This document shows, one piece after another, positions 16,229 through 35,626 of a DNA stretch of 58,137 bases. Source of the DNA: Candidatus Zixiibacteriota bacterium (lineage in GTDB: Bacteria > Zixibacteria > MSB-5A5 > UBA10806); assembly GCA_020348065.1 (NCBI GenBank), contig CP070742.1:1-58137 (forward strand), in the 5' to 3' direction. The notes under the pieces are model-generated. The model was given only the letters and a program-made list of their open reading frames with translations, made no database searches and was not told the origin of the DNA. The translations under genes and the position numbers were made by a program. The first letter of the stretch is position 1. Every line of letters starts with the position of its first letter.

Positions 16229-17128
16229 TTACCAACCTCTTGCAGTCATTACCACGATCACCGTCTTTATAAGAATCTTTAAATCCTGGATGACGCTAAG
16301 GTTTTTAATGTATTTCAGATCGTATCTCACCTTACCGTCAACATCCTCGATACTTTCGTCATATTTATGCTCGACCTGAGCGAGTCCGGTGACACCCGGT
16401 TTGACATCGAATCTCATTAAGTAATCGTTGACAACGCCGCCGAGTTTGGCCACAAAATAGGGTCTTTCGGGTCTTGGTCCCACCAGGCTCATGTCTCCGA
16501 TCAGGACATTTAAAAGCTGCGGTATCTCATCGATTCGAGTCCTGCGAAGAATTCTCCCGATCTCGGTTACCCGCGGGTCACTTTTGGATGCCCAGATGGG
16601 TCCGGTATTTTTTTCGGCATCTATATACATGGTCCGGAATTTCAATATTCTAAACGGCTTACCGAAACCATACACTTTTCTGCGATCGGAATACTGCCGG
16701 CGTTCGATGCCGTCAAGACTCATCTGCCTTCTACTCCCTCTCCGTCGGTTTTTGCCGACCCGCAATTGCGTATAGAAGACCGGACCCTTACTATCCAATT
16801 TAATCAAAACGGAAACGACCAGACAGATCGGCAGAGTAATAATTAAACCGGAAATAGATCCAAAAACATCGACGGTTCTCTTAAAACTGTCTATAAGATT
16901 GATTCTACCCGAAACTTCTCGTACGGCCGACCCGAGAGCCCTGACAAGGGAGAGACCTGATAAAATATCGAGGACCAGATATAAGTTGGCGAGGAGTATA
17001 TCGCCAATGAACAGGTATATAATTTTTCGTCCGCCGGCCCTGAACCTCGCCCAGGAATCCCAGAAGCCGGAAATCTCTTCTTCCCAGTAATGAGCAAGCG
17101 GACTTGTTACAGGGCTTTGGTATCTCAA
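16229..17128 (-). CDS. Polyprenyl-phosphate sugar-1-phosphate transferase
   Basis: 299-aa initiating transferase of exopolysaccharide synthesis, placing a sugar-1-phosphate on undecaprenyl phosphate. The conserved catalytic core is present: KRTVDVFGSISGLIITLP (re-entrant helix), 'GPVFYTQLRVGKN', 'FRILKFRTM', 'RRTRIDEIPQLLNVLIGDMSLVGPRPERP' and 'KPGVTGLAQV'. It lacks the four-helix and CoA-binding N-terminus of WcaJ/WbaP and has only a ~65-residue extension with one hydrophobic stretch. An insert rich in Arg (RRRGSRRQ) lies between the core motifs. A TTG start with a GGAG eight bases upstream is used. It has its own sigma54-type promoter and a terminator, so it is a separate unit from the upstream operon. 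Confidence 0.93.
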   Translation of the reverse strand: MRYQSPVTSPLAHYWEEEISGFWDSWARFRAGGRKIIYLFIGDILLANLYLVLDILSGLSLVRALGSAVREVSGRINLIDSFKRTVDVFGSISGLIITLPICLVVSVLIKLDSKGPVFYTQLRVGKNRRRGSRRQMSLDGIERRQYSDRRKVYGFGKPFRILKFRTMYIDAEKNTGPIWASKSDPRVTEIGRILRRTRIDEIPQLLNVLIGDMSLVGPRPERPYFVAKLGGVVNDYLMRFDVKPGVTGLAQVEHKYDESIEDVDGKVRYDLKYIKNLSVIQDLKILIKTVIVVMTARGW

Positions 17129-17173: not shown

Positions 17174-17189
17174 TGCAAAAATATTGCCA
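17174..17189 (-). promoter_or_regulatory. Sigma54-type promoter of the sugar transferase gene
   Basis: Minus strand TGGCAATATTTTTGCA has the invariant GG and GC exactly ten bases apart, TGGCA in the -24 element and TTGCA in the -12 element. Transcription would begin near 17163, about 35 nt before the TTG start. The rest of the 280-base gap (17129..17408) has only a short direct repeat, ATGCAAAA, at about 17359..17377, which could be part of an activator site. Confidence 0.75.
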
Positions 17190-17408
17190 CAAACAGAGAA
17201 TGACGCTTAGAAAAGAGCATTCTCGATCCGCGGCCGATCAGGATTTACAATATATTGGCTTTCAACGGATTAGAAGGGGGGACTGCAGAAAATAATTTGC
17301 CGAATCATCGCTTTTATTAATCTGCCATAAAATCAGAGCCTAAATTCATTGAACCGATATGCAAAATTATGCAAAAATCCTGCAGAGGGGCAAGCAAATT
17401 GAATAATA

Positions 17409-18125
17409 TTAAGACGTTTTCAAATCTTGCGGAGAAGAGTAATGATAACCGTAATAGCGGTCCTTGAAATAGTAGGGCAGAACATCCTCATAATCATTTA
17501 CCACCGCTCCGTAAACATTAATGGAGGCGTTTTTCAGCACGTTTATGGCTCTTTTAAAAACTTCCTTCTGCGTCGATCCTGCCCTGACAACCATGATTAC
17601 GCCATCGACATGATCGCCGATAAGCAGGGGATCGGAAACGGGAATTACGGGAGGGGAATCGATCACCACAAAATCAAAATAAAATTTCAACTCCTGTATA
17701 ATGGTCGAGAGATCGGCCTGATCGATAAGTTCGCCCACGACCTTGGCAGCCGCCCCCGATGAAATAATCTGAAGATTCGGAATGGACGATTTTCGCGCGG
17801 CGCTTTTTACTTTCAATTCTCCTTTTATTATATCAGTCACGCCGGGGCGAGAACCGACATTGAAATATTCATGAATTTTCGGTCGCCTGAGGTCAAAATC
17901 CACCAATACCACCTTAAGCTGTGTAAGATTGGCCACCGTGATGGCCAGATATGAACTTGTGAGGGATTTGCCCTCACCTATCATGGCCGACGTAATTAAG
18001 ACACTCTGACTGTCGCCGTCGTTTTTTGATTTCAGATTGGAATATATTCGACGGAGTTCGGTGGCGTATGACGATTCCCGATCGTAAAGTGAGGCGATTG
18101 ACTGAAATGTTTTCCTGGAACTCAT
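17409..18125 (-). CDS. BY-kinase (CpsD/CapB-type tyrosine kinase)
   Basis: 238-aa ATPase of the bacterial tyrosine kinase family that controls polysaccharide chain assembly. It has Walker A (MIGEGKSLTSSYLAI), the specific Walker A' (VVLVDFDLRRPKIHEYF) and Walker B (FDFVVIDSPPV). A tyrosine-rich C-terminal tail (PYYFKDRYYGYHYSS) is the expected autophosphorylation cluster. It is a stand-alone cytoplasmic kinase, so it needs the separate membrane activator, here the Wzz-like protein at 19246..20826. It overlaps the TPR gene by four bases. The Walker A has M-I-G where many members have P-G. Confidence 0.92.
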   Translation of the reverse strand: MSSRKTFQSIASLYDRESSYATELRRIYSNLKSKNDGDSQSVLITSAMIGEGKSLTSSYLAITVANLTQLKVVLVDFDLRRPKIHEYFNVGSRPGVTDIIKGELKVKSAARKSSIPNLQIISSGAAAKVVGELIDQADLSTIIQELKFYFDFVVIDSPPVIPVSDPLLIGDHVDGVIMVVRAGSTQKEVFKRAINVLKNASINVYGAVVNDYEDVLPYYFKDRYYGYHYSSPQDLKTS

Positions 18126-19240
18126 TTAAGTATCGCTTCCAGAAGGGCTTCAAATCCTCTCAGGTCATTCTCCGAAAGTTTGATATTCTTTAAAGCCTTA
18201 CCGAAATTTGGATTTATCTCTATAGCCTTCTTAAAATGATCGATGGCTTTATCACGCATTATTTTCCCCATTATGGTATAAGCCATACCGAGTTCATTCT
18301 CCAGATCAGCGTAACCGGGATTGGTCTTCAACAAATTTTCGATTTTATCGATATAATCTTTAATATTTTTCTCCGTAGCGCCGTTATCTCCGTATACGCA
18401 ACGTATATACGTATCCACGAATTTATCCGGGGACGAATCCGCGCCGTCATTTTCGGATACCGAAGACAATTTCTCGTAAGCTTCCTCGAGCCGGCCTTGC
18501 TGCAGAAGATCCATCCCGATTTTATAATTCTCATTGCCGTACCGCGGATTGAAAGCGATTGCCTTCCCGAAAGTCTCGGCACAATTTTTCTCCATATCTT
18601 TTGCCAGCTCGAAATCTTCTTTCACGATGCCGTTGAGAATAAATCCCAGACCCATATTATAAAACGCCCTGTCGTAATAAACGTTTGCCTCGACCGCTTT
18701 TTTAAATTCGCCAATTGCGGAGAGCGGTTTTTTTAGATGTAAGTATGTCTCGCCGAGCAGATTCCTGTAATCGGGATATTCCGGAGAGAGGTCGACCGCT
18801 TTTTTAAGTTCCGCCTCAGCGTCATCAAACCTGTTTTTTGCGATATAGACTTTTCCGAGAAGCAGCCTGATCGCGGAATTGTCATTATGTTTCGCGGAGG
18901 CGGTCCGCAACAGGTCGACCGCCTCATCGTAAAGCCTGTTTGCCAGCAAAGCTGATCCCAGCTTAACGATAATTTCGGCCCGGTCCGAGTTCTTCTTTGA
19001 CTCTGTCACCTTCAGCAATATCTCATAATCATTTAATTTCCGGCGGTGGGCTTCCATGATATAATCTATGAGTTCATTGCCTTCGCGATCGCCGGGAAAA
19101 GATATAAAATCGATATTCAGCAATCTGCCTTCGTTGAAAAGCGAGCACACGACCGTACGATCGGATTCATTATAGGTAGTCTGGAAAAGATAATCCCTAT
19201 CAAGATAATGGAGTCTTTTCGAATAAAATATGGATGGCAT
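18122..19240 (-). CDS. TPR protein of the polysaccharide operon
   Basis: 372 aa. An N-terminal ~95-residue segment of unknown type ('RTVVCSLFNEGRLLNIDFISFPGDREGNELIDY') is followed by TPR repeats (AEIIVKLGSALLANRLYDEAVDLL, SAIRLLLGKVYIAKNRFDDAEAEL, PDYRNLLGETYLHLKKPLSAI and a final 'DKAIDHFKKAIEINPNFGKAL'). ATG 19240 is chosen, nine bases after GGGAG; an upstream TTG at 19249 would sit on the ribosome binding site. No signal peptide is visible, so it is probably cytoplasmic. It lies between Wzz and its kinase and may scaffold the assembly. Function inferred from position only. Confidence 0.85.
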   Translation of the reverse strand: MPSIFYSKRLHYLDRDYLFQTTYNESDRTVVCSLFNEGRLLNIDFISFPGDREGNELIDYIMEAHRRKLNDYEILLKVTESKKNSDRAEIIVKLGSALLANRLYDEAVDLLRTASAKHNDNSAIRLLLGKVYIAKNRFDDAEAELKKAVDLSPEYPDYRNLLGETYLHLKKPLSAIGEFKKAVEANVYYDRAFYNMGLGFILNGIVKEDFELAKDMEKNCAETFGKAIAFNPRYGNENYKIGMDLLQQGRLEEAYEKLSSVSENDGADSSPDKFVDTYIRCVYGDNGATEKNIKDYIDKIENLLKTNPGYADLENELGMAYTIMGKIMRDKAIDHFKKAIEINPNFGKALKNIKLSENDLRGFEALLEAILK

Positions 19241-19245
19241 TAAAA

Positions 19246-20826
19246 TCAACTCCCTTTTGATCTCAGGAATAAAATTAATAACACGAGCATAAAGCTTACG
19301 CCCGCCCCGATAATATAAGGAATTTTCCTCTTGATTCCGGATCCGTAAGGGAGATTCATTCTCGGAATAGTCCCCAATACTTTCAATCCCGTGAAACCTT
19401 CAACATCCTCCACTCTCTTGAATGAATTATCGAGGATTTCCATAAAAACAATTATACCGGCCCCGAAAATTATTCCGATCACTATTCCCATTGCAAGCAG
19501 TTTCCTTTTGTCCGGCGACTGGGGACCAAGAGGCATTGAAGCCGGTTTTACAATAACGAATCTGGCTTCGGCTTCCACTTTCCTGGCGGATTGATCGATA
19601 GCGGCGTACTGGGAGTGTTTTACAAAGAGGTCATACAATGTTTTGTAGTTGTCCACTTCGCTCTGGAGCCTGTCCATTGTGATCTCGGAATCGGGATTGT
19701 CGGAGAGCCGCGATTTAATGGCCGCAATACTTTGATCGAGGGTTTTTCTTTTGGCGCGGCTAAACTCAATGGCCAATCCGCCGGTAATGTATTTGCTGAT
19801 GGTTTCAATAACGGCAGCGGATTTGTCCGAATATTTATTTTCGACAAAAGTTTTAATCCTGCTATTCAGATCGGAAAGCATATCTTTAGCCTCTTCATTG
19901 AGGCTCAGGACCTTCGGATCCTTCCAGGAAAGTCTGGTTAAAAGATCGGTCAGTTTTTCTATGTTTGAAAGCAACCGGCTTTTTTCCGCGGCTAACTCGG
20001 GCGGAAAACCGAGACCGCCCATATTTATACCCTCGGTCAATAACAGCCCCCTGTATTCATGCTGCTTTACCTCAAGAGAAGATATTTCAAAATCTATGGC
20101 CTCCGCGGCGGAGGCTATCTGCTGAAGGTTTAAGCCGCCCGTGTCTTTGGCAACGCTGCCTACAATTAACTGCTGCCGGAAATTTTTCAGATTGTTTTCG
20201 GCGACGGTCATTTTCTCGCGATACAGTTCCAATTGTTCTTCGGAAAATGCTATATTGGATCTTACTCCCGCAAGCTCCTGCGCCAGGCTTTCTTCAATAA
20301 ATATATCGGCAAGAGTTTTCGCCCTTTTTTGAGCCTGAATCGGGTTGGATGCAGCGAAATCGATCTGCATAATATTGGTGGAGCTCATGCTAACCTGCAC
20401 ATTATTACGAAGCGCATCAGCCATAATCGTCTCTGCAAGCTCGCTTTCGGAAATTTCGGGATACATGGACTTTGTACTGGCCGCGATATTCCTTAATTCG
20501 GGCGGGATCGGTATGTCAAGTATGGCTATTAATCTGCGCAGATTTTTAGTCGAAGTGATCTGGCTGTATAATGCTCGCTGCCTTTCCGAAATCGATTCAC
20601 GTGAAAACGATCTGCCTCCCTCAAGTTGACGTTCCACCGAGGGCGGAAGAACCTTGGATTCGCCTATCAGCAACGTCACCGACGATTTGTATACGGGCGA
20701 CATGAAATAACCCATTATAAACGCCACCAGAGGAATTATCATCAGCGGAATTATGATAAATACTTTCCGTCTTTTTAAGATAGAAAGATATTCCCTTAAA
20801 TCTATCTGGCTCCCGTTTTCAGGCAT
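19246..20826 (-). CDS. Wzz/GumC-type polysaccharide co-polymerase
   Basis: 526-aa inner-membrane protein that sets polysaccharide chain length and activates the BY-kinase. It has a cytoplasmic start (IDLREYLSILKRRKVFII) and a first membrane helix (IIPLMIIPLVAFIMGYF). A long periplasmic region with coiled-coil heptads follows, then the conserved 'ASMPLGPQSPDKRKLLAMGIVIGIIFGAGIIV' motif and helix. A cytoplasmic stretch with 'VEGFTGLKVLGTIPRM' is present. Unusually, a third hydrophobic segment (IPYIIGAGVSFMLVLLILFL) ends the protein. The kinase domain is not fused and is encoded two genes downstream. Confidence 0.92.
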   Translation of the reverse strand: MPENGSQIDLREYLSILKRRKVFIIIPLMIIPLVAFIMGYFMSPVYKSSVTLLIGESKVLPPSVERQLEGGRSFSRESISERQRALYSQITSTKNLRRLIAILDIPIPPELRNIAASTKSMYPEISESELAETIMADALRNNVQVSMSSTNIMQIDFAASNPIQAQKRAKTLADIFIEESLAQELAGVRSNIAFSEEQLELYREKMTVAENNLKNFRQQLIVGSVAKDTGGLNLQQIASAAEAIDFEISSLEVKQHEYRGLLLTEGINMGGLGFPPELAAEKSRLLSNIEKLTDLLTRLSWKDPKVLSLNEEAKDMLSDLNSRIKTFVENKYSDKSAAVIETISKYITGGLAIEFSRAKRKTLDQSIAAIKSRLSDNPDSEITMDRLQSEVDNYKTLYDLFVKHSQYAAIDQSARKVEAEARFVIVKPASMPLGPQSPDKRKLLAMGIVIGIIFGAGIIVFMEILDNSFKRVEDVEGFTGLKVLGTIPRMNLPYGSGIKRKIPYIIGAGVSFMLVLLILFLRSKGS

Positions 20827-20835
20827 ATCAATTTC

Positions 20836-21837
20836 CTACCCAATCAGCAATATTAATGTTCCGACCGCCGTAAGTAAAGGGATAAACTGAGCTACGGCGC
20901 CTAATACTCCTCTGAAAGCTCCCGCCTCTTTCGCCGGAACGACAATTGTATCCTCCGGATGTAAAATCAGTCGCGGAGGTGATCCCTTATCAATATAATC
21001 TTTAATATTTACCTTTACAACGTTCGAATATCCGGAGCCCTTCATTATTACGCGCACATTTTGAAGGTCGGCATTATCGGTAAATCCGCCCGCTATCGCT
21101 ATGGCATCCAGAACATCGATTCCCGCGTCAAGGCTCCTCGCGCCGGGTTGGGCTACGCTTCCGAGCACATAATATATATTCCGGCCCCGGAATTCGGCGC
21201 TCTCCCCGAGCCGTATCGCCGCTCCAAAAGGCGATGCAGGCACATTGATCAAATCACCCGACAAAACCTCCGGAGCCTTCGAGAGATCCCCTTTCTTAAT
21301 CAGGTCATACAGATCCACATTTATTATTTCCGACCTTTCCTCGTTCTTTCTGACAATGGTAATTTTCGAGAGGTCCGCCATCTCGGTGGGGCCGCCGGCG
21401 TCCAGAACGACCCGCCATAGATCGGGAATTTTCTCATACTTGAGGGTGGAGGGATTAAGCACCTCGCCGGTAACGACCACATCCCTGGAATGAAAACCGG
21501 TCACCATTACGGTCGCCTGGGAGATGGGAGTATGGTAAAAGGCCATCTGTTCGACAATGGATTCCGACAGTTCTCCGGTGGTTAATCCCTGGGCCCTGAT
21601 CTCGCCAATCACGGGCAGCGTTATCATACCGTTTTCTCCCACTCTCACCGTAGTATTGAGGTCGGGCTGCTGCCAGAAGGATATTGATAAGACATCTTTT
21701 GCTCCGATTCGATATGATTCGTCGCTTTCGTTTTGGGCAAGGATCGAACCTCCGGGGAAACATATTAATGTCAGCAGATAAGCCGATATTGTTATTAGCG
21801 CCACGGATCCTGTCTTTCTTTTCAATAACGATTTCAT
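20836..21837 (-). CDS. Polysaccharide export protein (Wza-like, SLBB)
   Basis: 333-aa outer-envelope export channel subunit. It has a signal peptide (ending about SILAQ), a Poly_export domain (YRIGAKDVLSISFWQQPDLNTTVRVGENGMITLPVIGEI) and two SLBB beta-grasp domains (RDVVVTGEVLNPSTLKYE and NIYYVLGSVAQPGARSL). A C-terminal hydrophobic helix (AVAQFIPLLTAVGTLILLIG) may form the outer-membrane barrel, as in Wza. No lipobox cysteine is evident, unlike E. coli Wza. It overlaps the upstream cyclase gene by four bases. Confidence 0.93.
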   Translation of the reverse strand: MKSLLKRKTGSVALITISAYLLTLICFPGGSILAQNESDESYRIGAKDVLSISFWQQPDLNTTVRVGENGMITLPVIGEIRAQGLTTGELSESIVEQMAFYHTPISQATVMVTGFHSRDVVVTGEVLNPSTLKYEKIPDLWRVVLDAGGPTEMADLSKITIVRKNEERSEIINVDLYDLIKKGDLSKAPEVLSGDLINVPASPFGAAIRLGESAEFRGRNIYYVLGSVAQPGARSLDAGIDVLDAIAIAGGFTDNADLQNVRVIMKGSGYSNVVKVNIKDYIDKGSPPRLILHPEDTIVVPAKEAGAFRGVLGAVAQFIPLLTAVGTLILLIG

Positions 21838-23657
21838 AACTCATCCTCCCTCAGGAGAGATTCACTCTCGGCAAGGTCCGATTCAAACATTATCGCCTTG
21901 TTTCTTCCGAGAGATTTAGCTTTAAGCAAAGCCATATCAGCGCAATATATCAATCGATCCGGCGTCGTGGCATGATGCGGAAAAACCGAGCCCCCCACTG
22001 AGACGGTGATAGACATCTCCTCCGCTATGGTTCTGGATTTGAATTTAAATTCGGCTATTTCGTTTCTCAGACGCTCGATGAAAACCCTGCCGCTATTTTT
22101 GCCGGTATCAGGCATAATAATACAAAACTCCTCCCCGCCGTATCTGCTTACGATATCGATAGATCTGATGGCCTTGGTTATTAGCTCGGCGGTGCTCTTC
22201 AAAACCATATCCCCCGTCTGATGACCGTAATTGTCGTTGAAAAGCTTAAAATTATCTATATCCAATATCACCAAAGACAGTTCACGATTATATCTTTTCG
22301 CCCTGAGAATTTCTTCCCCCAGCCTTTTGTAAAAATATCGATAATTAAAAATCCCGGTCATACTGTCGGTATACGAGAGCCTTTCGATGGTGGCGAACTG
22401 GCGAATATTGGCCAGAGACAACGAGGCGATATTGGTTATAACCGAAATAAAATTAATATCGGAATCATCATACTGGTTTTTGTTCCTTTTCTCGCCGATT
22501 AAAAGCAAACACCCCACTTCATTTCCGATTCCCAGAGGGGAGATTAACTGAAAACCCCGCTTGATCGCAGGCTTTAAAAACCGGTCTTCGGCTTTAAGGA
22601 CGCTTGCCGCAAGAGGGAGAAGCAGCGGTTTAGATTTTTTCAATATCATCTCATAGAGCTCCGAATCGGCCTCTAGGACCATCGAATCGTAACCGCTATC
22701 CACATCCTCGGAAATCCGGTCGATAATATATCTGCCCTCGCCGGTAGGATAAAGCATTTCGACCCCGGACGCGCCGATCTGGCTGCTTATAATAGTTCTC
22801 AAGGTTGAGAACAGTTGATTCTCATCTAAAATGGAGTATAGATCGGAGGAGATGTCGACGAAGGAGTTTAATTCGGAGGAACGCCTGTTGACCTCCTTTC
22901 CGGCGTTTACGAGATCCCGCTTTGACCTGGAATAATCGTTTTTCAGTTTCTTCAGTTCCAGGTCTATTTTTTTTCCTCTATCGTTCAATCTAATCAATTC
23001 ATCCAAAGACGGCCATAAAATGCGATTGAATTCATCATCGCTCAAGACCGAGGCAAAATGCCGGTGGGGATCATCGCAAATAATAATTACGGAACGGGAT
23101 CTTCCCCAGTTGTAAACGAATACCGAAGGAGAATTGAATTCTTCAAGGGCTTTTTCATTGAGAAGCAGCCTCCCGATGCTATCGTCTTTTAAAATTTTCC
23201 CGCTCCCGGGAACCTCCTTAAGGATATGCCGCAATCTCTCAATTCGAGGTCTGTTTATAAGCTTCGGATTGATATTATAAAAAATCTTCACTTCATAGCT
23301 GTTTTTGTATCTGAAAAAAACCGCCAATTTTATCATCTGGAACCTCATCGATAAATGTTCGGCGGCTTTTTTCTGAAGAGATTTTGTGCCGGGCGAATCC
23401 CTTAGAATATCGCCAAGCAGTTGAGGCGCAATAGAAAAATCGCGTTTTTTTTCCTTTTCGTACAATCGGTCTATTAGTGATGAGGCGCGCGTCAATTTCA
23501 GGTGCCCGACCACAATCGTGCCCATAATACCCAGGGTCGCAAGACCGAGAATGAAGGCGATCCAGATCGATTTTGAGAACAGAATTATCAAAATGACCAG
23601 GGCGCTGAGAAGCAGGACGTAAATATAGTTGATCTTCGCGAATTGAGCTTTATTCAT
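21834..23657 (-). CDS. GAF-GGDEF diguanylate cyclase, membrane bound
   Basis: 607 aa. Two N-terminal membrane helices (YVLLLSALVILIILF, IWIAFILGLATLGIMGTIVV) precede a region of about 180 residues and a coiled coil. A GAF domain follows at about residues 270-420 (DISSDLYSILDENQLFSTLRTII ...), then a GGDEF domain whose active site reads RYGGEEF near residue 510. An RxxD inhibitory site (RSID) lies five residues before GGEEF, so it should make c-di-GMP and be product-inhibited. Placed between the partner-switch genes and wza, it probably couples that signal to polysaccharide production. Confidence 0.94.
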   Translation of the reverse strand: MNKAQFAKINYIYVLLLSALVILIILFSKSIWIAFILGLATLGIMGTIVVGHLKLTRASSLIDRLYEKEKKRDFSIAPQLLGDILRDSPGTKSLQKKAAEHLSMRFQMIKLAVFFRYKNSYEVKIFYNINPKLINRPRIERLRHILKEVPGSGKILKDDSIGRLLLNEKALEEFNSPSVFVYNWGRSRSVIIICDDPHRHFASVLSDDEFNRILWPSLDELIRLNDRGKKIDLELKKLKNDYSRSKRDLVNAGKEVNRRSSELNSFVDISSDLYSILDENQLFSTLRTIISSQIGASGVEMLYPTGEGRYIIDRISEDVDSGYDSMVLEADSELYEMILKKSKPLLLPLAASVLKAEDRFLKPAIKRGFQLISPLGIGNEVGCLLLIGEKRNKNQYDDSDINFISVITNIASLSLANIRQFATIERLSYTDSMTGIFNYRYFYKRLGEEILRAKRYNRELSLVILDIDNFKLFNDNYGHQTGDMVLKSTAELITKAIRSIDIVSRYGGEEFCIIMPDTGKNSGRVFIERLRNEIAEFKFKSRTIAEEMSITVSVGGSVFPHHATTPDRLIYCADMALLKAKSLGRNKAIMFESDLAESESLLREDEL

Positions 23658-24390
23658 TGCCCTGCCCTAATTTGTTTCTGGCACGGCGAAAACGGCTCTT
23701 TTTTGTTAATAGCCGGTTGCGCCTGAGGATCCCCCATATTTTCCACCAACCCGGTTTCAGGGAAGGATGTTTTCTGCCGATTTCACCCTTTATCTCGGAA
23801 ATTGTAAAAAACGGGTCTTTTGACACCATTTCGATCACCAGTTGCTTGAGGTCGGCTGAAGACGTTTTAATTTTCGGTTCCGCGGCGGCTCTTTCCTTCT
23901 CCGCCACAACCGTTCCGACGGGGATGGCATCCTTCAAATCAATGGTCGCGGGGGAGCCATCCTTAAAATCAGAGGATGGTGAAGCCGAAACATTCGGCGA
24001 TTGATTAACGCCGGTTTCGACGTCGACGTCCGCGCCGCCATGAAAATCGGATTTGGCTTTTTCCACGCTATCGAACGCTTTTAATATTGAATCGAATTCC
24101 AGAAGCTCGAATATTTCGTAAACGTTGGGTATCATCCGAGCAAGTTTTATATCGCCGGAGTTCTGGCGGATTTCCCTGATATTGGAGATGAAAATTCCCC
24201 AACCGGCCGAGGATATATAATCAACTCCTCCAAGATCCACGACGATATAGAATTTTTTCTGTTCCAGCAGCGAATTCATAACTTTTTCCAACTCGGGGGC
24301 CGTTATGGTATCTATGACTCCGTCGACCCTCACGACCGAAACTTTTCCCGCCATTCCGGAACTATCCAGTGAAATTTTAATATCGCTCAT
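23650..24390 (-). CDS. STAS anti-anti-sigma-like protein with C-terminal HTH segment
   Basis: 246 aa. Residues ~1-110 form a STAS domain of the RsbV/SpoIIAA type. The phosphorylation site reads 'VDYISSAGWGIF', so the switch serine is present. A linker of about 65 low-complexity residues follows. The basic C-terminus (~180-246: LKQLVIEMVSKDPFFTISEI ... WWKIWGILRRNRLLTKK) resembles the C-terminal half of the transposase-type DNA-binding region of the kinase/phosphatase at 25137..28046. A plain RsbV has no such domain. It overlaps the cyclase gene by eight bases. It is the likely substrate of the RsbW/RsbU fusion protein. Confidence 0.88.
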   Translation of the reverse strand: MSDIKISLDSSGMAGKVSVVRVDGVIDTITAPELEKVMNSLLEQKKFYIVVDLGGVDYISSAGWGIFISNIREIRQNSGDIKLARMIPNVYEIFELLEFDSILKAFDSVEKAKSDFHGGADVDVETGVNQSPNVSASPSSDFKDGSPATIDLKDAIPVGTVVAEKERAAAEPKIKTSSADLKQLVIEMVSKDPFFTISEIKGEIGRKHPSLKPGWWKIWGILRRNRLLTKKSRFRRARNKLGQGNE

Positions 24391-24396
24391 AATTTT

Positions 24397-25140
24397 TTAT
24401 ACCTGCAACCTTTCCAAAAATTCTTTTGACAGACTAAAATAATCGTACGCTCCGTAGGAGTAGGGCGCGTACTCAAAAATGGTTTTTTTAAACCATTGCG
24501 ATTTCTTAATCTGCGCGTTGTTCCTTATTTCCGTTTTAAAAACCATTTCCCCGTATTTCCCCCTGAGGTCGTCAAGCGCCAGTCGCGATACGGTTGTCCT
24601 TCTATCATAAAATGTCGGCAATACCCCGACTATCTCAAGTGACCCGTTGCCATCTCCGCTTAAATCCTTTTTAAGTTCAATTGTAGTTTTCACTCCCTCC
24701 AGCGAAAAATAATCGAGCGAGGAGGGAATCAATAAGTAATCGGCAAATTCAAGGGCGTTTAAATTTATTATATTTATGGACGGAGAGCAATCTAAAATCA
24801 CGCAATCGCAGCCGGTAAGACGAGACAGACACCGGCCCAAGACTTTGTTCCGGTCGCCTCTGGCCGAGAGTCTCATTTCCAGTTCCGCCAGTTTTTTTCG
24901 TCCCGAGGGCAACAGGTACAGGTTGGGACGGACCTTATAAATATCGACTTTGCCCTCAATCATCAAGTCGACCAGGCCCTGCGAAGACTCTACTCCGAAC
25001 GCGGAAGATGCCGATCCCTGGGGATCGCAGTCTATAATCAAGACCCTCTTTCCGGATAAAGCCAGCCCGTGCCCGAGATTGATGGCGGTGGTGGTTTTAC
25101 CGGTACCGCCTTTAGACGTCGATATCGCGAGTTTTATCAT
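24397..25140 (-). CDS. ParA/MinD-type ATPase
   Basis: 247-aa P-loop ATPase of the ParA family, which positions DNA or protein cargo on the nucleoid. It has a deviant Walker A (SKGGTGKTTTAINLGHGLA), switch I 'DCDPQGSASSAFG' and Walker B-like 'CDCVILDCSPSINIIN'. Full length for the short ParA type, without an N-terminal HTH. No ParB gene is adjacent, so it is not an ordinary chromosome-partition pair. Sandwiched between and overlapping the RsbW-RsbU fusion (four bases) and six bases from the STAS gene, it is likely to position that signalling complex or the polysaccharide machine. Confidence 0.93.
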   Translation of the reverse strand: MIKLAISTSKGGTGKTTTAINLGHGLALSGKRVLIIDCDPQGSASSAFGVESSQGLVDLMIEGKVDIYKVRPNLYLLPSGRKKLAELEMRLSARGDRNKVLGRCLSRLTGCDCVILDCSPSINIINLNALEFADYLLIPSSLDYFSLEGVKTTIELKKDLSGDGNGSLEIVGVLPTFYDRRTTVSRLALDDLRGKYGEMVFKTEIRNNAQIKKSQWFKKTIFEYAPYSYGAYDYFSLSKEFLERLQV

Positions 25141-28046
25141 TTCTTATATTTGCTCTCCAGTTTCCTGGTGTAAATATCCCAATCGATTTTATTTTCTTTT
25201 TCATCCGCGTTTTCACGATCCTTGTTATCCGAGGCCGCCTCTCCGACATCGATAGGAGAAAGCTCCCTTTCCGATTCGCTCGCCATGAACGATTCAGATT
25301 CCCCGGAGATCCCCGGGGCCGGGGACGCGGGAGATTCCTCTCTCTCCAGCGATTCCGTATATTCCTCGTCGGTCTTTTTCTCGTCCGATGAAAATTGTTT
25401 GGCGGAGGCGGCGGATTCAATTTTAGTCTCCGCCATTTTCAAAATCATTTTCTCGAATAAACTCGCCAGATCCTTTCCCCCGCCAAGCTTGGCGAGTTCC
25501 GCCGCGATTTCTCCATACAGGTCGGCGTCGCCCAGAAGAGGTTCGATTCCTTTGAGTTTTTCTATAAGGTCGAGTTCGACAGCCTTTTCATCTTTTTTCT
25601 TTTCGCCCAGGCTTCTTTTTATCTGTTCGAGATAAGCATCCCGATCGACTTTTTCCGTTCTTTCTTTTCGCTCTTTATCTTTGAGGATTTCTTTATCAAG
25701 CTCGTTCCGCATCTCAGGGGAAAGCGCGCCAAGTCTCTCCACGTATTCCAGGCGAAGTTTTTTGGTGTTCAGCCGCATCCTGACAAGCTCTTCATAAAGC
25801 CCGCGCTGATCAATATCGATCATTCCCCGCTCTTTCAATTCGACCATAATTCTTTTCGTCCCGTACTCGGGGTATTCTCTTACAATATTCAGAATTTCTT
25901 TCCGGACCTCGTAAGGGATCTGTTTCATCCCGGAATCTGCGCGAAGCTTTTTATTCAGCAGCCCGGCGTCGCCCAGTCTTTTCCATCTCCGGCGATATTT
26001 ATAAAATGTCGACAGGGATACGCCCATCTCCTTGCTGGCGTCCTCCGGCGATTTTCCCTCTTCCTCGGTCATCTGAATGAGCCTTTTCCTTTTCTCGAAA
26101 ACAAGCTCATCCAGCATTACTTTTTCCTTGATAACAACCAGGGTAATATCATCATTTTGCGGGGCCCCGGCGGTGAATCTGTTTATATCGGCATCGAGTT
26201 TTTCAGTAAATTCATCCGGATGAAGATCGGAATTGGTCTTAATAAACTCTATCAAACGATCGTTGCCGTATTGTTCTCCCGCCTTATTCATGGCCTCGGT
26301 GATACCATCGGTATAAATAACCAGCATGTCGTCTTTCTTCAGCTTCACCTTATCACGCTCGATTGTCTGTTCAAACTTCACTCCGTCGGGCAAACTTATA
26401 CCCAGAGGCATTCCTCTGGTATTCAGGAAATAGCAGGAGTCGATATCCTTCCGGTAAAGAATCATGGGATTATGCCCGGCCGAGGCGAACGATATGGTTC
26501 TTTTTTCCGAATCGAGAGTTATAAAAAATATGGTTATGAACATGCCCTTTTTCACATCATCGGCGACAAACTGGTTTACGCGGCTCAAAACGTCGGTGGG
26601 CGAATAATTTTCCCTTGATTCCAGCCTTAAAGCGGTACGAATCATGGTCATTACCAGCGATCCGGGGACTCCCTTGCCGGAAACGTCGGCTACTATAATG
26701 CCCATGGTATTGGGGTCGATCTGGACAAAATCGAAATAATCGCCGCCGACGTCCTTGGCGGCCCTATAAATGGTGGAAATATCATAACCTTCAACGTCAG
26801 GGAATTCACGCGGCAGCAAAGCGTGCTGGATCTCCTGGGCCACCTGCATCTCTTTCTGGAGACGTTCCTGTTCGACAAGATCTTCCTGCGATTTTTTAAA
26901 TTTTTCGGTGATTTCGTTGAATGCCCTGGCGATTTCGGAAAATTCGTCGGTGCCCTCAACGGGCAGGGTCTGATCAAGATTTCCCTCACCGATTCGAAGC
27001 ACGCCTTCGGTAAGTTTTTGAATAGGTTTAACGAAATAGTTGGACAGCAGGAAAACGGCTATAAAACCGATTATCAACCCGCCGAATGAAAAGGCCAGAA
27101 GACCTTTACGAGCCTGAGAGATTTGATTTTCCAGGGGCGCCCTCAGAAGCCTGAAGTAGGAAAAGCCGACTATTCTGCTGTTCAGAGTTACCGGTATTCT
27201 ATAATGAAACGCCGTGATACCCGTGGAATCTGTCACCGCCAAATCACCGTTATAGAGTTCTTCTCTCGGCAGGGGCTCGAATGGCGAGAGGAATCTTTTG
27301 GGATTCCCAGGATCCGCAATTATGGTATTCGCGGAATCAGTTACAATTACACTTATAAAATTATCGTTGGTTTCGAGCCAGGCGGCGGCTGATTTGGAGA
27401 TATCAAGATCCCTGAAAATTATTTTCTCGCCAAGATCGGAAACAAACGAATCCATAACGTCCGACGCGCCCCGGAAAAAGCTTGCGTAAGTTCCTTTTTC
27501 GGTGCGGTTATCGATATATAGAAATACACCCGTGACAATGGCGAAAACGACCAGGGAAGCCCAGAGAGCAAACTTCACTCGAATCGATATGCCCGGGGGA
27601 CGAATAGTTCTTACCGCCAGTTTATCGGCCTTCTTCTCCATCCGCAGCTCATTTTCGCCATCGCGGGAATAATAGGATACCGAATCCATCATTTTCCGGA
27701 TCAGGTAGAGTCCGAGCCCTCCTTTTCGACCGGTTTTCACATATCTGCCCAGATCGGGCGAATCCGAGTGATCGTAATCGAAACGACGTCCCCTGTCAAA
27801 TACCGAAAAAATGACTTTGCCGGGATGGATCGCGATTTTGATTCTTATGGTTCCGGGAGCGTATAAATACGCATGCCTGATTACATTGGTGCAAACCTCC
27901 TCGATTGCCAGAAGGACGCTGTTTATGTCCTTTGCGGCCAAGTCGGTATCGCCAAGTACGTTTTTTACGCTTCCCCGGATATCCTCAAGCTGTCCCTCAT
28001 CGGCAGGGAAGCTCATGAATACTTCTTTTACTGTTTTTCTTGCCAT
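25137..28046 (-). CDS. RsbW kinase - RsbU (SpoIIE) phosphatase fusion with transposase-type HTH
   Basis: 969 aa in one uninterrupted frame. Residues ~1-130: HATPase of the anti-sigma kinase RsbW type (N box EEVCTNVIRHAY; GGLGLYLIRKMMD). ~155-180: membrane helix. ~180-320: extracytoplasmic sensor. ~320-345: second helix (FGGLIIGFIAVFLLSNYF). ~345-395: HAMP. ~420-640: PP2C/SpoIIE phosphatase with metal ligands (DVGGDYFDF, ADVSGKGVPGSL, QNDDITLVVI). ~655-785: a region like the DNA-binding part of IS481-type transposases (SPEDASKEMGVSLSTFYKYR ... RKEILNIVREYPEYGTKRI). The ~185-residue tail is charged and looks disordered. No DDE transposase core exists. It combines kinase and phosphatase for a STAS substrate, encoded two genes away, with a DNA-binding segment. 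Confidence 0.93.
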   Translation of the reverse strand: MARKTVKEVFMSFPADEGQLEDIRGSVKNVLGDTDLAAKDINSVLLAIEEVCTNVIRHAYLYAPGTIRIKIAIHPGKVIFSVFDRGRRFDYDHSDSPDLGRYVKTGRKGGLGLYLIRKMMDSVSYYSRDGENELRMEKKADKLAVRTIRPPGISIRVKFALWASLVVFAIVTGVFLYIDNRTEKGTYASFFRGASDVMDSFVSDLGEKIIFRDLDISKSAAAWLETNDNFISVIVTDSANTIIADPGNPKRFLSPFEPLPREELYNGDLAVTDSTGITAFHYRIPVTLNSRIVGFSYFRLLRAPLENQISQARKGLLAFSFGGLIIGFIAVFLLSNYFVKPIQKLTEGVLRIGEGNLDQTLPVEGTDEFSEIARAFNEITEKFKKSQEDLVEQERLQKEMQVAQEIQHALLPREFPDVEGYDISTIYRAAKDVGGDYFDFVQIDPNTMGIIVADVSGKGVPGSLVMTMIRTALRLESRENYSPTDVLSRVNQFVADDVKKGMFITIFFITLDSEKRTISFASAGHNPMILYRKDIDSCYFLNTRGMPLGISLPDGVKFEQTIERDKVKLKKDDMLVIYTDGITEAMNKAGEQYGNDRLIEFIKTNSDLHPDEFTEKLDADINRFTAGAPQNDDITLVVIKEKVMLDELVFEKRKRLIQMTEEEGKSPEDASKEMGVSLSTFYKYRRRWKRLGDAGLLNKKLRADSGMKQIPYEVRKEILNIVREYPEYGTKRIMVELKERGMIDIDQRGLYEELVRMRLNTKKLRLEYVERLGALSPEMRNELDKEILKDKERKERTEKVDRDAYLEQIKRSLGEKKKDEKAVELDLIEKLKGIEPLLGDADLYGEIAAELAKLGGGKDLASLFEKMILKMAETKIESAASAKQFSSDEKKTDEEYTESLEREESPASPAPGISGESESFMASESERELSPIDVGEAASDNKDRENADEKENKIDWDIYTRKLESKYKK

Positions 28047-28108: not shown

Positions 28109-29953
28109 TTATTCTTGTTTTGTCTCGTTTTCGGCCGCGAGTCGTTCTCTGGCCTGATTGATGTTTTTCCTGAGATCAGAATTATTCGGATAGATATTTA
28201 CCAATTCCGTCCATATTTCGATAGCCTTATTATAATCGCTTGATTGATAACTTTCTAAACCTGACAGGTAACGGTTCCAGTGAACGGCGTTGGATTTGAT
28301 ATCCTCTATTGTGGTCGGAGGAACTGACTTGGCCCTGGTCTCCGAGATAAGCGATCTTACCGATCTATCATCCGGCCTTAATCTGCCGGCTCTTTCGAGA
28401 AGATCGACCGCCTCCAAATATCTTCCGGCATTTATCAATGATAACGCATTCGCGATAAGTTCGTTTCCCTCCATCTCTATTTTCAATTCCTCTATCCGGG
28501 ATTCGGCTTCGGAATTATCCTCGTCCAGGGATAATATCCGGATCCATTCGGTCAGCGCCCCCGCGTTATCTCCCTGATTCCGCAACCTTATTGCCGTTTC
28601 TCTCTTTTCGGAAAGTTCCGTGGAAAGGTTCTGCTCGGCCGATGCCAGGAGATCTTTTATGGTCTCGTTGTCAGGATCTATCTCCAGCAGGAGCCTGTAT
28701 TTCGAAATAGCGGTATTGAATCTTCCTTCGTTAAAATCGTTCAGGGCCGATTCGACTCTGCCCGAGATTATTTCCTTTCTCTTGCGATCGGCAACGCCCT
28801 CGATTGCGCCTGAAATAATAATATTCATCATGCTATCCGACATAATTCGAGCATGTTCGGATTCGGGATTCAGGCCCTGAACCTTTTGATAATTCCCCAG
28901 AGCGTCCTGAAAATCCTTCCTGTTTCGCAAACTGTCAGCCAGATTCAACAGAGAATCGGCCTGATCGGACAGAGCTCTCTCCCACAATTTCCGTTCCTGC
29001 CTGATAAGACTCGCTCTTCTTTGGTTTCTTTTTTCCGATACCGAGGAACCGAAAGAGAACGAAAACGAAATTCTGTGGCTGCCGCCGAGATATTCCACAT
29101 TTTCATAGGCGTAATCGAGCCCGATAGACCTGTAAAGCAGGCCGCCTCCGAATGTGAGACGTCCTCGATCCAGACCGATCCGCAGCGAATACTGTTTAAG
29201 AAATTCAAGTTCGGCTCCGGCATGGAATATTGCCGATCGGCCCGCGCTTTTTTCAATATCAAATCCGGCTGTCAGGTGCATCTTGTCGCCGAATTTTCTG
29301 TAAGCCGCCGCCCCGAAACGGGATACGGTATTGAATTTGTCTTCTGCCGACTGGAGTTTTATTCTCGGTTGGAATAAATCGATAAAACTTACACCTAACG
29401 TAAGCCATTGGAATCTCGTCTGACTGTATTGAAATCCCAGATCCGCCCCGGCACCGGAGCCCGAAAAACCACCTACATTGTTCGATACGATCTTGAAGGT
29501 TAATCCTCCATGCAATCCATATCCGATAGCGCGCGCGTAGCCGAAACCGAATCTGGTTTCCGATGACGAAAAAGTATCTATCAGACGATTGTCGATATCT
29601 CGTCTTTCGATTCCGTCTGTACCGATACGTCCCGCGGAAAAGGAGAATACACCCAGATCGACTAACGGATATGTTATTCCCAGACAGTCGTAATTGGTGT
29701 TCATAAATAAGGTCGTCCTGAAGGCCATCAGATTCGCCCTATCTATCGCCGAGGTGGCCGCCGGATTCCAGAAAGGCGCGGAAGCGTCGCCGGAGAGGGC
29801 CACAAACGCTCTTCCCATAGCCATACCCCTGGCTCCGGCGCCAAGATTGAATAGAGATTCCCGGCCGGCGTCGCCCTCAGCGTATACAGCGTTCTGCAGG
29901 GCGATTATTAGCCCGAATAACAGGCAGCCTATTTTACGACCGCGATTTTGAAT
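28109..29953 (-). CDS. PorV/UPF0164-like outer-membrane protein with TPR domain
   Basis: About 614 aa. The recognisable beta-barrel motif 'LGAGARGMAMGRAFVALSGDASAPFWNPAA' is that of PorV/UPF0164 proteins, outer-membrane barrels that in type IX secretion carry cargo off the translocon. Residues ~310-600 are TPR repeats (LLNLADSLRNRKDFQDALGNYQKVQ; DYNKAIEIWTELVNIYP). The first ATG (29824) lacks a signal peptide. The frame continues upstream to an ATT at 29953 behind AGGAGGAG, giving a textbook signal peptide (MQNRGRKIGCLLFGLIIALQ, ending VYA). The rare ATT start is therefore proposed, inside the last codons of the upstream gene. A barrel plus soluble TPR on one chain is unusual. Confidence 0.8.
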   Translation of the reverse strand: MQNRGRKIGCLLFGLIIALQNAVYAEGDAGRESLFNLGAGARGMAMGRAFVALSGDASAPFWNPAATSAIDRANLMAFRTTLFMNTNYDCLGITYPLVDLGVFSFSAGRIGTDGIERRDIDNRLIDTFSSSETRFGFGYARAIGYGLHGGLTFKIVSNNVGGFSGSGAGADLGFQYSQTRFQWLTLGVSFIDLFQPRIKLQSAEDKFNTVSRFGAAAYRKFGDKMHLTAGFDIEKSAGRSAIFHAGAELEFLKQYSLRIGLDRGRLTFGGGLLYRSIGLDYAYENVEYLGGSHRISFSFSFGSSVSEKRNQRRASLIRQERKLWERALSDQADSLLNLADSLRNRKDFQDALGNYQKVQGLNPESEHARIMSDSMMNIIISGAIEGVADRKRKEIISGRVESALNDFNEGRFNTAISKYRLLLEIDPDNETIKDLLASAEQNLSTELSEKRETAIRLRNQGDNAGALTEWIRILSLDEDNSEAESRIEELKIEMEGNELIANALSLINAGRYLEAVDLLERAGRLRPDDRSVRSLISETRAKSVPPTTIEDIKSNAVHWNRYLSGLESYQSSDYNKAIEIWTELVNIYPNNSDLRKNINQARERLAAENETKQE

Positions 29954-32900
29954 TTCTCCTCCTCGCCGGAAGTATTATTTTTAATCAAACATATATACAC
30001 GCCCGACCTCACTTCGGACCCGGCATCGTTTCTTCCATCCCATAAAATACCGTCCGTAAATTCGGTATGCGGGCCGGCCCTGCCAAGGGGATCCGAAGCG
30101 GAAATCGATTTTGACCAAACCAATTCGCCCGGAAGGGTAAATATTTTCACCTCGAGATCGGAGTCTTCGGTCAGATTATATACGATTCTGGCCTGTTCTA
30201 TTCGGGGATTGAATGGATTGGGGCAACTCGACACCGATTGTGAAAAATCCTGTTCTAAAAGAACCGTATAATTGCTGACGATTATCTCCCGTTCTCCTCT
30301 CGGAGATACGGCGACAAGCGGAACCGTGGGTATGCCATCTTCCATTATGAAACCTTTGATATTATCGGTGTTTAAATGGATTCGGAAATCCCTGATACTC
30401 GCGTTCGACGAAATTACAAGGCGCAAAATAAATTCCGCCGATTCACCCGGTTCCAGGACTATAGGATTATCGAATACGAAACCTACGGTATCAGCGGAAA
30501 TCAGGTCCGGAACATGCTGAACTGAGTCCGAAAATAGGAATATCTCGGTAAAAACATCCTCCACTTCGCCGGAGGGATTTAACTCGGCGTTAAATGCGAT
30601 TGACGATATGCCCGCCGAGAAAGATCCTCCGCGATCACGATTTCTTAACCTGAAGGTCATGAAATCCAGCTCCTGTCCTTTCACTGCCGATCCCCGATAG
30701 AGATCGGTTACTTCGATTACGATTTCGGGTAGAAGCTCTCTTACGGTTATATTTACCGATGAGGAATCGTTAAGAATAAAAGCGGGGGCGTTGGTATTCT
30801 CGTCAGACGGCAGGAAATCGATGATGGTCCAGATCGGTACCGGCACGGCGATCTCGCTATCGGGTACGGTAATATTCCATACCAATGGCACATTGGAGTT
30901 AAAGGGTTGAACGGGATTTTCGGCGACCTGTATGTCGGGATGTCCAAGATGCAGGCTGATTACGCCCTCTCCTGCAGACGCCTGCCCCAGGTTATGAACG
31001 ACAGCTTCAAATTGTAAAGACGCGCCGGGTTCAATGATGCCGTCCAACGCGGCACGAGGACCAATTATAGCTGACGCAAGGTTCAATGTTGCCCTTTCCA
31101 ATACGTCCAATACGACGAAATTCGTTTCCGTACTAATTAATTCGCCGGTATTCGGGTCTACCAACCATGCGGCAACAGAAATTGAATCAACAATCGGATT
31201 ATCAGGTGCGCGGATCACCCATGACACCAAACCCCCGACGGGCGTTTGTGACAGGGGGTCAGAGGTGGAAAAGCTCGCCGGCAGAGCAATCGAAGCGGTT
31301 AGATTTTCAAATATCCCGAGAGCAGTAATTGTATCGGTGATTGTAAACGACTGACCGGTCGATAGCACGTTGTCAACGGCGCCGTCCGGGGCGGAGACCA
31401 CGGGAATATGCGAAATAATCGGCTCGGTATTCGCGACGAAAGTCCTGGTCGATACGGAATCAGGCCCGACCGCGTCGCCGCCATCGTTGGAGTCGATGGG
31501 TCTGTTCAGAAACCGGACGGATAAGACGGCCGAATCGTTTGGAGTTCCGGGGGCCTCAAGCTCCCAGAAAACATCCTCGTCCAGTATAAATTCCCTGTTT
31601 GCGGAATCAATAAATGAGAATCCGGACGTTCCCGTATCCAGAGTAATTACCTGCGGACCCTCGATATCCGCCATCCCCAAATTAGAGACCGACGTTGAAA
31701 GCGTTACAAGTTGGTTTATAGTTACGGTATCGTCCATAGCCGCTGGGGGTGATGTTACAACCAGCGGAGAAAGAGATAGAAGCGCCGGCGTTTCTATCAC
31801 CAGCAAAGTCGAGTTGTCGAGGGGCTGCATAAGCTGCGGCGGTAACCCCGATACGGCCCCCTGTCCCCCCGATAATGAACTTGTAAACACCAGCCCGGAA
31901 TCCGGATCAGGATCGGTGATAAAAGGTATTATTCCCGCAATTGTAGCGTTGCCTGAAATATTCGGAATAATAATGGAATCTAAACTGCTTTCGCTTTCCA
32001 GTTTGATGTAAAACGATTGAACCGGCTCCAGACCCAGATTTGAAACAGCCACTTTCACAGAGCAGGCTTGAGAGGTATTTACAAAGGGGACATTTCTCGA
32101 CATGGCGTAGGTGGAATCTATTCTCAATGAACCCCTGGTCAAAACCGATACGGAATCGGGAGAGGTGTTGAATTGGCGCGTTTCCTGTAGACCGTTATGC
32201 GTGCCTCTCAATTTAATAACAGGCAAATAATCTCCGGGAGTGAATTCCGGGATTAAAATCGTAGGGGTAAAGCTGAAGGTCGTGTCTCCTCCGGGCTGTA
32301 TAATATCGATTCGGACCGATGATGCCGTATCAGAATAAGCAATATACTCCCTGTTGGAATCGCTGAAGGATATCCTGGAGTTTTCGTGATCGACAACAAA
32401 AGCGACATCGCCGTTATTGCTTAATCGAATGGAAAAGGCTGCGTTCTGTCCCTGAACCAGTGAATCGATCGATATCGACCCGGTAATGTATTGTAGATCT
32501 ATTCCCTCCTGGATTGTGATCATATCCGAAAGATTAATGGTATCGCTCACAAAATCTCCGTTTTCCTCGCCATAGTAATAGAGTACAGGTTGATATACGC
32601 CCGGTGTAAAAGCCGGATCTACGAAAGCGGAATCCATTATAATCGTTGTTCCCAGGGGCGTGTTCGGCGGCAGGAAAACGCCGCTGGAAATATCGGCTCT
32701 AAACAGGCGTACGCTATCGGAAACAATGATATTTGAACTATCGAACAGGGCTAAGCCGGCTCCCCCGGTATTGGCAAGCGACAGGGATAGATTATACCAG
32801 TTCCCTCTGGAAAGCGTGTCTCTGCTAATGGATCCCGTAACATAACCTATAATTGAACTGGATTGAATCTCCAGAGTGTCAGGGAAACCATCCAGAGTAT

Positions 32901-35571: not shown

Positions 35572-35626
35572 TCTTGAAAGATACCACAAGCAGCGGCCGT
35601 GTCAACTTTTTTCGAAACCTGCGAAA

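Follow-up and report, generated by a model that had tools for sequence, protein, structure and literature searches.

Partner switches are known to act by protein-protein exchange, and the route that takes some of them to a polysaccharide output is unsolved. The SiaA/SiaB/SiaC/SiaD system of Pseudomonas aeruginosa, with biofilm as its output, assembles a membrane HAMP-SpoIIE phosphatase, a HATPase kinase, a STAS-like protein and a diguanylate cyclase in one operon, and SiaC directly binds and activates the stalk-containing cyclase SiaD via this stalk, as seen in a SiaC-SiaD structure (PMC8457831). SypE of Vibrio fischeri unites serine kinase and phosphatase in one protein that targets SypA, a STAS protein, to control the polysaccharide biofilm (PMC8256260, PMC10120452), with the target of SypA described as unknown (PMC8256260); a further report presents SypE as a multi-domain response regulator (PMC3610818). 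Here, we describe a kinase-phosphatase of Candidatus Zixibacteria, called KP in the following, which is encoded in a window of 58,137 nucleotides (the whole stretch of DNA that was analyzed) and seems to join such a partner switch to helix-turn-helix (HTH) modules of transposase ancestry and to a ParA ATPase. The best solved-structure match to KP is 3ke6, Rv1364c of Mycobacterium tuberculosis, which likewise holds phosphatase and kinase in one polypeptide but differs in that the phosphatase precedes the kinase in the matched structure. Rv1364c is a soluble protein that also has PAS and STAS domains and is not known to carry an HTH.

KP is a single uninterrupted frame of 969 amino acids on the minus strand in which an RsbW-type kinase, a sensor between two membrane helices, HAMP and a SpoIIE phosphatase precede two HTH units (Table 1). 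Pfam recognizes HATPase_c_2 at residues 13-138 (2e-27), HAMP at 333-379 and SpoIIE at 445-640 (3e-51). The N-box and G-box of the kinase and the metal-binding Asp set of SpoIIE/PPM phosphatases are both present, and across 18 homologues D436, D439, D454, D580, D632 and D633 of the phosphatase are invariant, as are the catalytic residues of the kinase; the region of the two membrane helices and the sensor is the fastest-evolving among the folded parts by per-domain identity. Farther along the protein, HTH_23 matches residues 651-697 beyond its cut-off (1e-8) and HTH_32 matches residues 680-748 at 8e-6, under its curated cut-off, while the first 111 of the 284 positions of the NCBIfam IS481-transposase model align to residues 652-763 with 57 bits, short of the whole-protein cut-off of 224 bits. 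A profile of the KP HTH in turn scores 59 and 39 bits against two intact IS481-type transposases of the same genome and 72 bits against a shorter fragment, which argues for shared ancestry with their DNA-binding part. KP differs from these transposases in that the homologous region is fused to a membrane signaling protein and that neither Pfam nor NCBIfam detected a DDE/rve catalytic domain anywhere in its 969 residues. The first-pass annotation, made from the letters alone, had proposed this kinase-sensor-HAMP-SpoIIE-HTH frame with an HTH of IS481 type and no DDE core; the frame is borne out by its open reading frame (ORF) and Pfam, and the HTH fold by Pfam, NCBIfam, AlphaFold2 and Foldseek. 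Elsewhere in the same genome (L176, L177) we noted a 201-residue orphan double-HTH ORF, either a transposase fragment or a small regulator, and an intact 388-residue IS481-type transposase.

AlphaFold2 models residues 636-815 (51 sequences) at a mean pLDDT of 91.3 as two HTH units (block pLDDT 92-98) followed by a long helix. The closest folds that Foldseek finds in the PDB are TnsB of the type V-K CRISPR-associated transposon and the paired domains of PAX6, PAX5 and Prd, all of them DNA-binding; as judged from the model, these share with KP the bipartite HTH fold expected from IS481 homology, despite weak E-values, and in its fold the KP region is compatible with DNA binding. Searching solved structures by sequence with the HTH profile gave weak matches only (best 0.007, TnsB 0.1). 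Against the nearest relative, non-synonymous divergence over both HTH units (dN 0.09-0.14) lies well below synonymous divergence (dS 0.5-1.5), indicating purifying selection on the HTH.

The gene next but one from KP encodes a STAS protein of 246 amino acids, giving the enzyme a linked presumed substrate in which the phosphoacceptor serine position is present. Its STAS domain superposes on SpoIIAA and RsbV with a TM-score of 0.9 (by target length), and S61, at the position of SpoIIAA Ser58, is invariant in 42 homologues; the solved SpoIIAA chain 1tid_B has Ala at this position, and we take it to be an S58A mutant. Around 55 poorly ordered residues join the STAS domain to a C-terminal HTH that hhalign aligns to HTH unit 2 of KP over 66 columns with 97% probability (E 1e-10), and an HTH2 profile built from KP sequences only finds the STAS C-termini at loci of Calditrichota, KSB1 and Eisenbacteria with 18-42 bits. 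By this profile homology, which the first-pass annotation had not seen, the kinase/phosphatase and its presumed substrate have a homologous module in common.

The STAS gene of the window carries its HTH in frame and no A tract. In the sister Zixibacteria family f9, where KP is without HTH, a tract of A9-A11 occupies the STAS/HTH junction at 30/30 loci in a near-fixed position (361-377 nt past the start of the STAS match), and the HTH downstream of it is in frame at 8 loci, in +2 at 21 and in +1 at one. Runs of at least nine A or T number 43 in 298 kb from 43 tract loci, one each (some genomes counted twice), and two in 412 kb of other Zixibacteria loci; the tract loci are L051-L054, L057-L059, L111, L113, L114, L116, L121, L122, L133 and L145-L174, and the window is not among them. 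No A tract was found at L112, a relative without the HTH. Because the HTH occurs in all three frames and the tract is kept, RNA-polymerase slippage is a better fit than a ribosomal frameshift of a single fixed direction, and Thermus dnaX offers a precedent for such transcriptional slippage (PMC1088944). Family f9 is thus likely, as far as sequences tell, to make two STAS forms from a single gene, one bearing the HTH and one lacking it.

A KP match was found in 58/58 relatives searched, with the phosphatase alone covered in some. Within Zixibacteria, KP bears the HTH in families f1, f2, f6, f7, f8 and f12, has it in degenerate or partial form in f5 and f15, and is without it in f3, f9, f11, f13 and f17. 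A scan of GTDB genomes recovered the architecture of residues 1-771 also in Krumholzibacteriota, Latescibacterota, KSB1, Calditrichota, FCPU426, Eisenbacteria and a metagenome-assembled genome of Spirochaetes, and Goldiibacteriota retain chiefly HTH unit 2; altogether, homologous kinase-phosphatases with HTH amount to 54 distinct sequences above 50 bits from at least seven phyla. The tree of the KP core, made by a quick method, with a weak base and the root not inferred, is most simply read as an HTH that was present early and lost several times. The first-pass annotation had named two outcomes that would count against it, no HTH fold in this region or related proteins that lack the region because of an assembly fusion; neither applies, as the fold is present and relatives in many genomes keep the domain order with the HTH region. 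Further variants were seen at the C-terminus: KP of Krumholzibacteriota and Latescibacterota (L069-L073, L094, L103) reaches about 1400 amino acids with three extra STAS domains after the HTH and is mostly followed by ParA and two further STAS genes, and KP of the KSB1/Calditrichota type (L075-L077, L081, L085, L087-L092, L101, L102, L115) has, by eye, a TPR-like C-terminus past the HTH and no adjacent ParA.

Between KP and the STAS gene of the window lies an orphan ParA with an intact Walker A motif (KGGTGKTT, fitting KGGxGKT) that matches Soj (1wcv, 2e-40) and McdA. No ParB or McdB gene was found at this locus, and the Soj-ParB pair of the same genome is a separate one elsewhere, leaving the KP-linked ParA without ParB. 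The ATPase is hence of the same type as the positioning ATPases Soj/ParA and McdA, while the candidate partner here is a membrane kinase-phosphatase. Of the 73 loci for which the data are complete, 43 have the KP HTH and 30 do not; ParA accompanies 22/43 of the former and 0/30 of the latter. The motif [WFM]xxYxxx[LIM] (WxxYxxKL type), derived by inspection of the very sequences counted, occurs in the last 45 residues of KP at 22/27 ParA loci and 0/74 others, even in Krumholzibacteriota where three STAS domains separate the HTH from the tail; in KP of the window the C-terminal peptide reads ...DWDIYTRKLESKYKK. Going by these counts, the peptide appears to be a stronger link to ParA than the association of ParA with the HTH, and KP would be a natural candidate adaptor for the ATPase. 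The first-pass annotation had tied the neighboring ParA to the KP HTH, a link that the co-occurrence supports, and had seen a disordered tail, which is not featureless given the conserved short peptide at its very end.

Table 1. Coordinates of the KP locus within the window and the evidence for each feature (aa, amino acids; TM, transmembrane helix).
Feature	Position	Strand	Evidence
KP kinase-phosphatase-HTH membrane protein, 969 aa	25137..28046	-	ORF, Pfam, NCBIfam; match in 58/58 relatives searched
RsbW-type HATPase kinase, aa 13-138, with intact N-box and GGLGL motif	27633..28010	-	
TM1 (~aa 152-179), extracytoplasmic sensor, TM2 (~aa 314-342)	27021..27593	-	Hydropathy, per-domain identity
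HAMP, aa 333-379	26910..27050	-	Pfam
SpoIIE/PPM phosphatase, aa 445-640	26127..26714	-	Pfam, invariant Asp set
HTH unit 1, aa 651-697, IS481/TnsB-like	25956..26096	-	Pfam, NCBIfam, AlphaFold2, Foldseek
HTH unit 2, aa 708-775, homologous to STAS protein C-terminus	25722..25925	-	Pfam, hhalign, AlphaFold2
C-terminal end of KP, aa 951-969, ...DWDIYTRKLESKYKK; candidate motif for ParA docking	25140..25196	-	Motif statistics
Orphan ATPase of ParA/Soj type, its start overlapping the stop of KP	24397..25140	-	Pfam, synteny, structure match
STAS domain of the 246-aa protein, with S61 at the position of SpoIIAA Ser58	24055..24345	-	Pfam, structure and sequence alignment
Four-helix HTH at C-terminus of STAS protein, aa 178-243	23662..23859	-	hhalign, predicted structure
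Diguanylate cyclase in the membrane, with GGEEF and RxxD	21834..23657	-	Pfam, NCBIfam, motif check
Polysaccharide export/control: Wza-like, Wzz/Wzc-like, TPR, tyrosine-kinase-type ATPase	17409..21837	-	Conserved synteny
PorV-family/TPR protein gene, immediate upstream neighbor of KP at most loci in the various phyla	28109..29824	-	Pfam, NCBIfam, synteny
Three TGCA direct repeats, one-helical-turn spacing	17360..17384	.	Conserved intergenic block
Sigma54-type -24/-12 promoter ahead of sugar-transferase gene (16229-17128)	17174-17189	-	

The gene order PorV/TPR, KP, ParA, STAS, GGDEF, Wza, Wzc-like, TPR and tyrosine-kinase-type ATPase is kept through much of the class, with or without ParA, and outside Zixibacteria the constant unit is PorV-KP(HTH)-STAS alone, with variable genes downstream. 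Conserved upstream of the PorV gene (29929-35589), we observed a repetitive secreted protein of 1886 amino acids whose C-terminus, by eye, resembles FlgD/type IX sorting domains. Intergenic conservation near the operon is limited to the TGCA array, the only one of its kind in the window, together with the sigma54-type promoter that follows it at a distance of about 170 bp ahead of the sugar-transferase gene; this pair is confined to the two nearest families and was not found in the examined loci of other HTH-bearing families. We set the array aside as an operator of KP, since this restriction makes it look like the site of an enhancer-binding protein and not a KP target. A conservation search of the PorV-KP intergenic region showed nothing clear.

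The locus resembles SiaABCD in having a cyclase with intact GG(D/E)EF in the operon, and SiaA and SiaD are among its best NCBIfam similarities, at 78 bits against a family cut-off of 700 and 152 against 290, respectively. However, SiaA, SiaB, SiaC and SiaD are encoded by separate genes, whereas in KP kinase and phosphatase are fused and flank the membrane sensor, and the KP system is further set apart by the HTH on both KP and STAS, the inserted ParA and polysaccharide genes directly downstream. SypE shares with KP the combination of kinase and phosphatase in one protein with a STAS target, but is not a membrane sensor; SypA is a single-domain STAS protein, and the SypE/SypA reports cited here describe no HTH, ParA or linked cyclase. 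In the open-access literature, we found no paper combining partner switching, STAS domain, helix-turn-helix and SpoIIE, and none tying Zixibacteria to those topics.

A polysaccharide switch like SiaABCD or SypE/SypA with an added module is the most economical reading of this locus. Our proposal that the KP system is a partner switch at the membrane that controls surface polysaccharide, with added HTH modules and ParA positioning, is a tentative one to which we give a little less than an even chance. The first-pass annotation had suggested that a sequence-specific DNA-binding module and a membrane anchor would let such a switch act at DNA or tether DNA to the membrane. The sensor would tune the kinase of KP, phosphorylating S61 of the STAS protein, against the phosphatase that would reverse this modification, and unphosphorylated STAS would act on the adjacent diguanylate cyclase much as SiaC acts on SiaD, so that the cyclase output would then reach the Wza/Wzc machinery. 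The HTH modules would most likely have retained DNA binding and keep KP, the STAS protein or both at the nucleoid, with ParA docking on the C-terminal peptide of KP to place or cluster the complex. In a more specific form that we consider unlikely, KP and STAS would meet on DNA via a captured transposase HTH of which each has a copy, ParA would move or cluster the complex on the nucleoid, and poly-A slippage in the sister family would set the share of HTH-bearing STAS. Several observations weigh against the proposal. The Foldseek E-values of the KP HTH are weak (0.04-0.9), we could assign no operator to KP, and most loci outside Zixibacteria are without linked cyclase and polysaccharide genes and many without ParA, so that this output is not universal. 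Furthermore, the ParA state changes only around four times on the tree, too few independent pairs to reach significance, which leaves a phylogenetic test of the ParA-HTH association powerless. Finally, HTH2 has a predicted recognition helix (IYDELVR type) of acidic-hydrophobic character, atypical for reading DNA.

This helix favors the main rival, in which the HTH modules no longer bind DNA and instead dock the STAS substrate on the kinase/phosphatase or some other partner, in line with the ability of homologous HTH domains to pair; we regard it as somewhat unlikely. Docking would make sense of a module common to enzyme and substrate, of the conserved acidic face of KP HTH2 (YxELVR) opposite a strongly basic, Trp-containing STAS module (GWWxIWxILRR...SKKxRFRxAR), and of Krumholzibacteriota, where KP continues into three fused STAS domains and the STAS proteins that follow show no detected HTH. 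Yet a large Zixibacteria clade keeps the STAS HTH while its KP has none, so that the module must have another partner there, and many lineages retain a transposase-like recognition helix in HTH1 (SxSTYYKYKxR).

The STAS-HTH protein could also be the output itself, regulating transcription with phosphorylation as the gate on its DNA binding, next to a co-regulated cyclase, and its retention across phyla even without linked cyclase or polysaccharide genes agrees with this, as does the apparent production of both STAS forms from one gene in the A-tract clade. The poorly ordered linker of some 55 residues between acceptor domain and HTH leaves no obvious allosteric path, however, and with no operator found in common across families we think this quite improbable. 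We would say much the same of KP as a ParB-like adaptor whose HTH and C-terminal peptide let ParA position sensor and polysaccharide machinery without any gene regulation: the co-occurrence of ParA with HTH and peptide and a Soj/McdA-type ATPase without ParB speak for it, but about half of the HTH-bearing loci have no neighboring ParA. Scarcely credible, even with IS481-type transposases in the genome, is an accidental fusion or a functionless, decaying transposase remnant: the same architecture in many independent genomes rules out an assembly fusion, and an intact HTH conserved across phyla under purifying selection refutes decay.

A transposase-derived HTH on both enzyme and substrate, a recruited ParA and a slippery tract elsewhere yield testable predictions for DNA-localized or positioned signaling, and the KP family provides an example of the domestication of a transposase domain into signal transduction in several uncultured phyla. 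For these bacteria, our findings suggest a possible route by which surface sensing and the production of polysaccharide (slime) may be tied to DNA.

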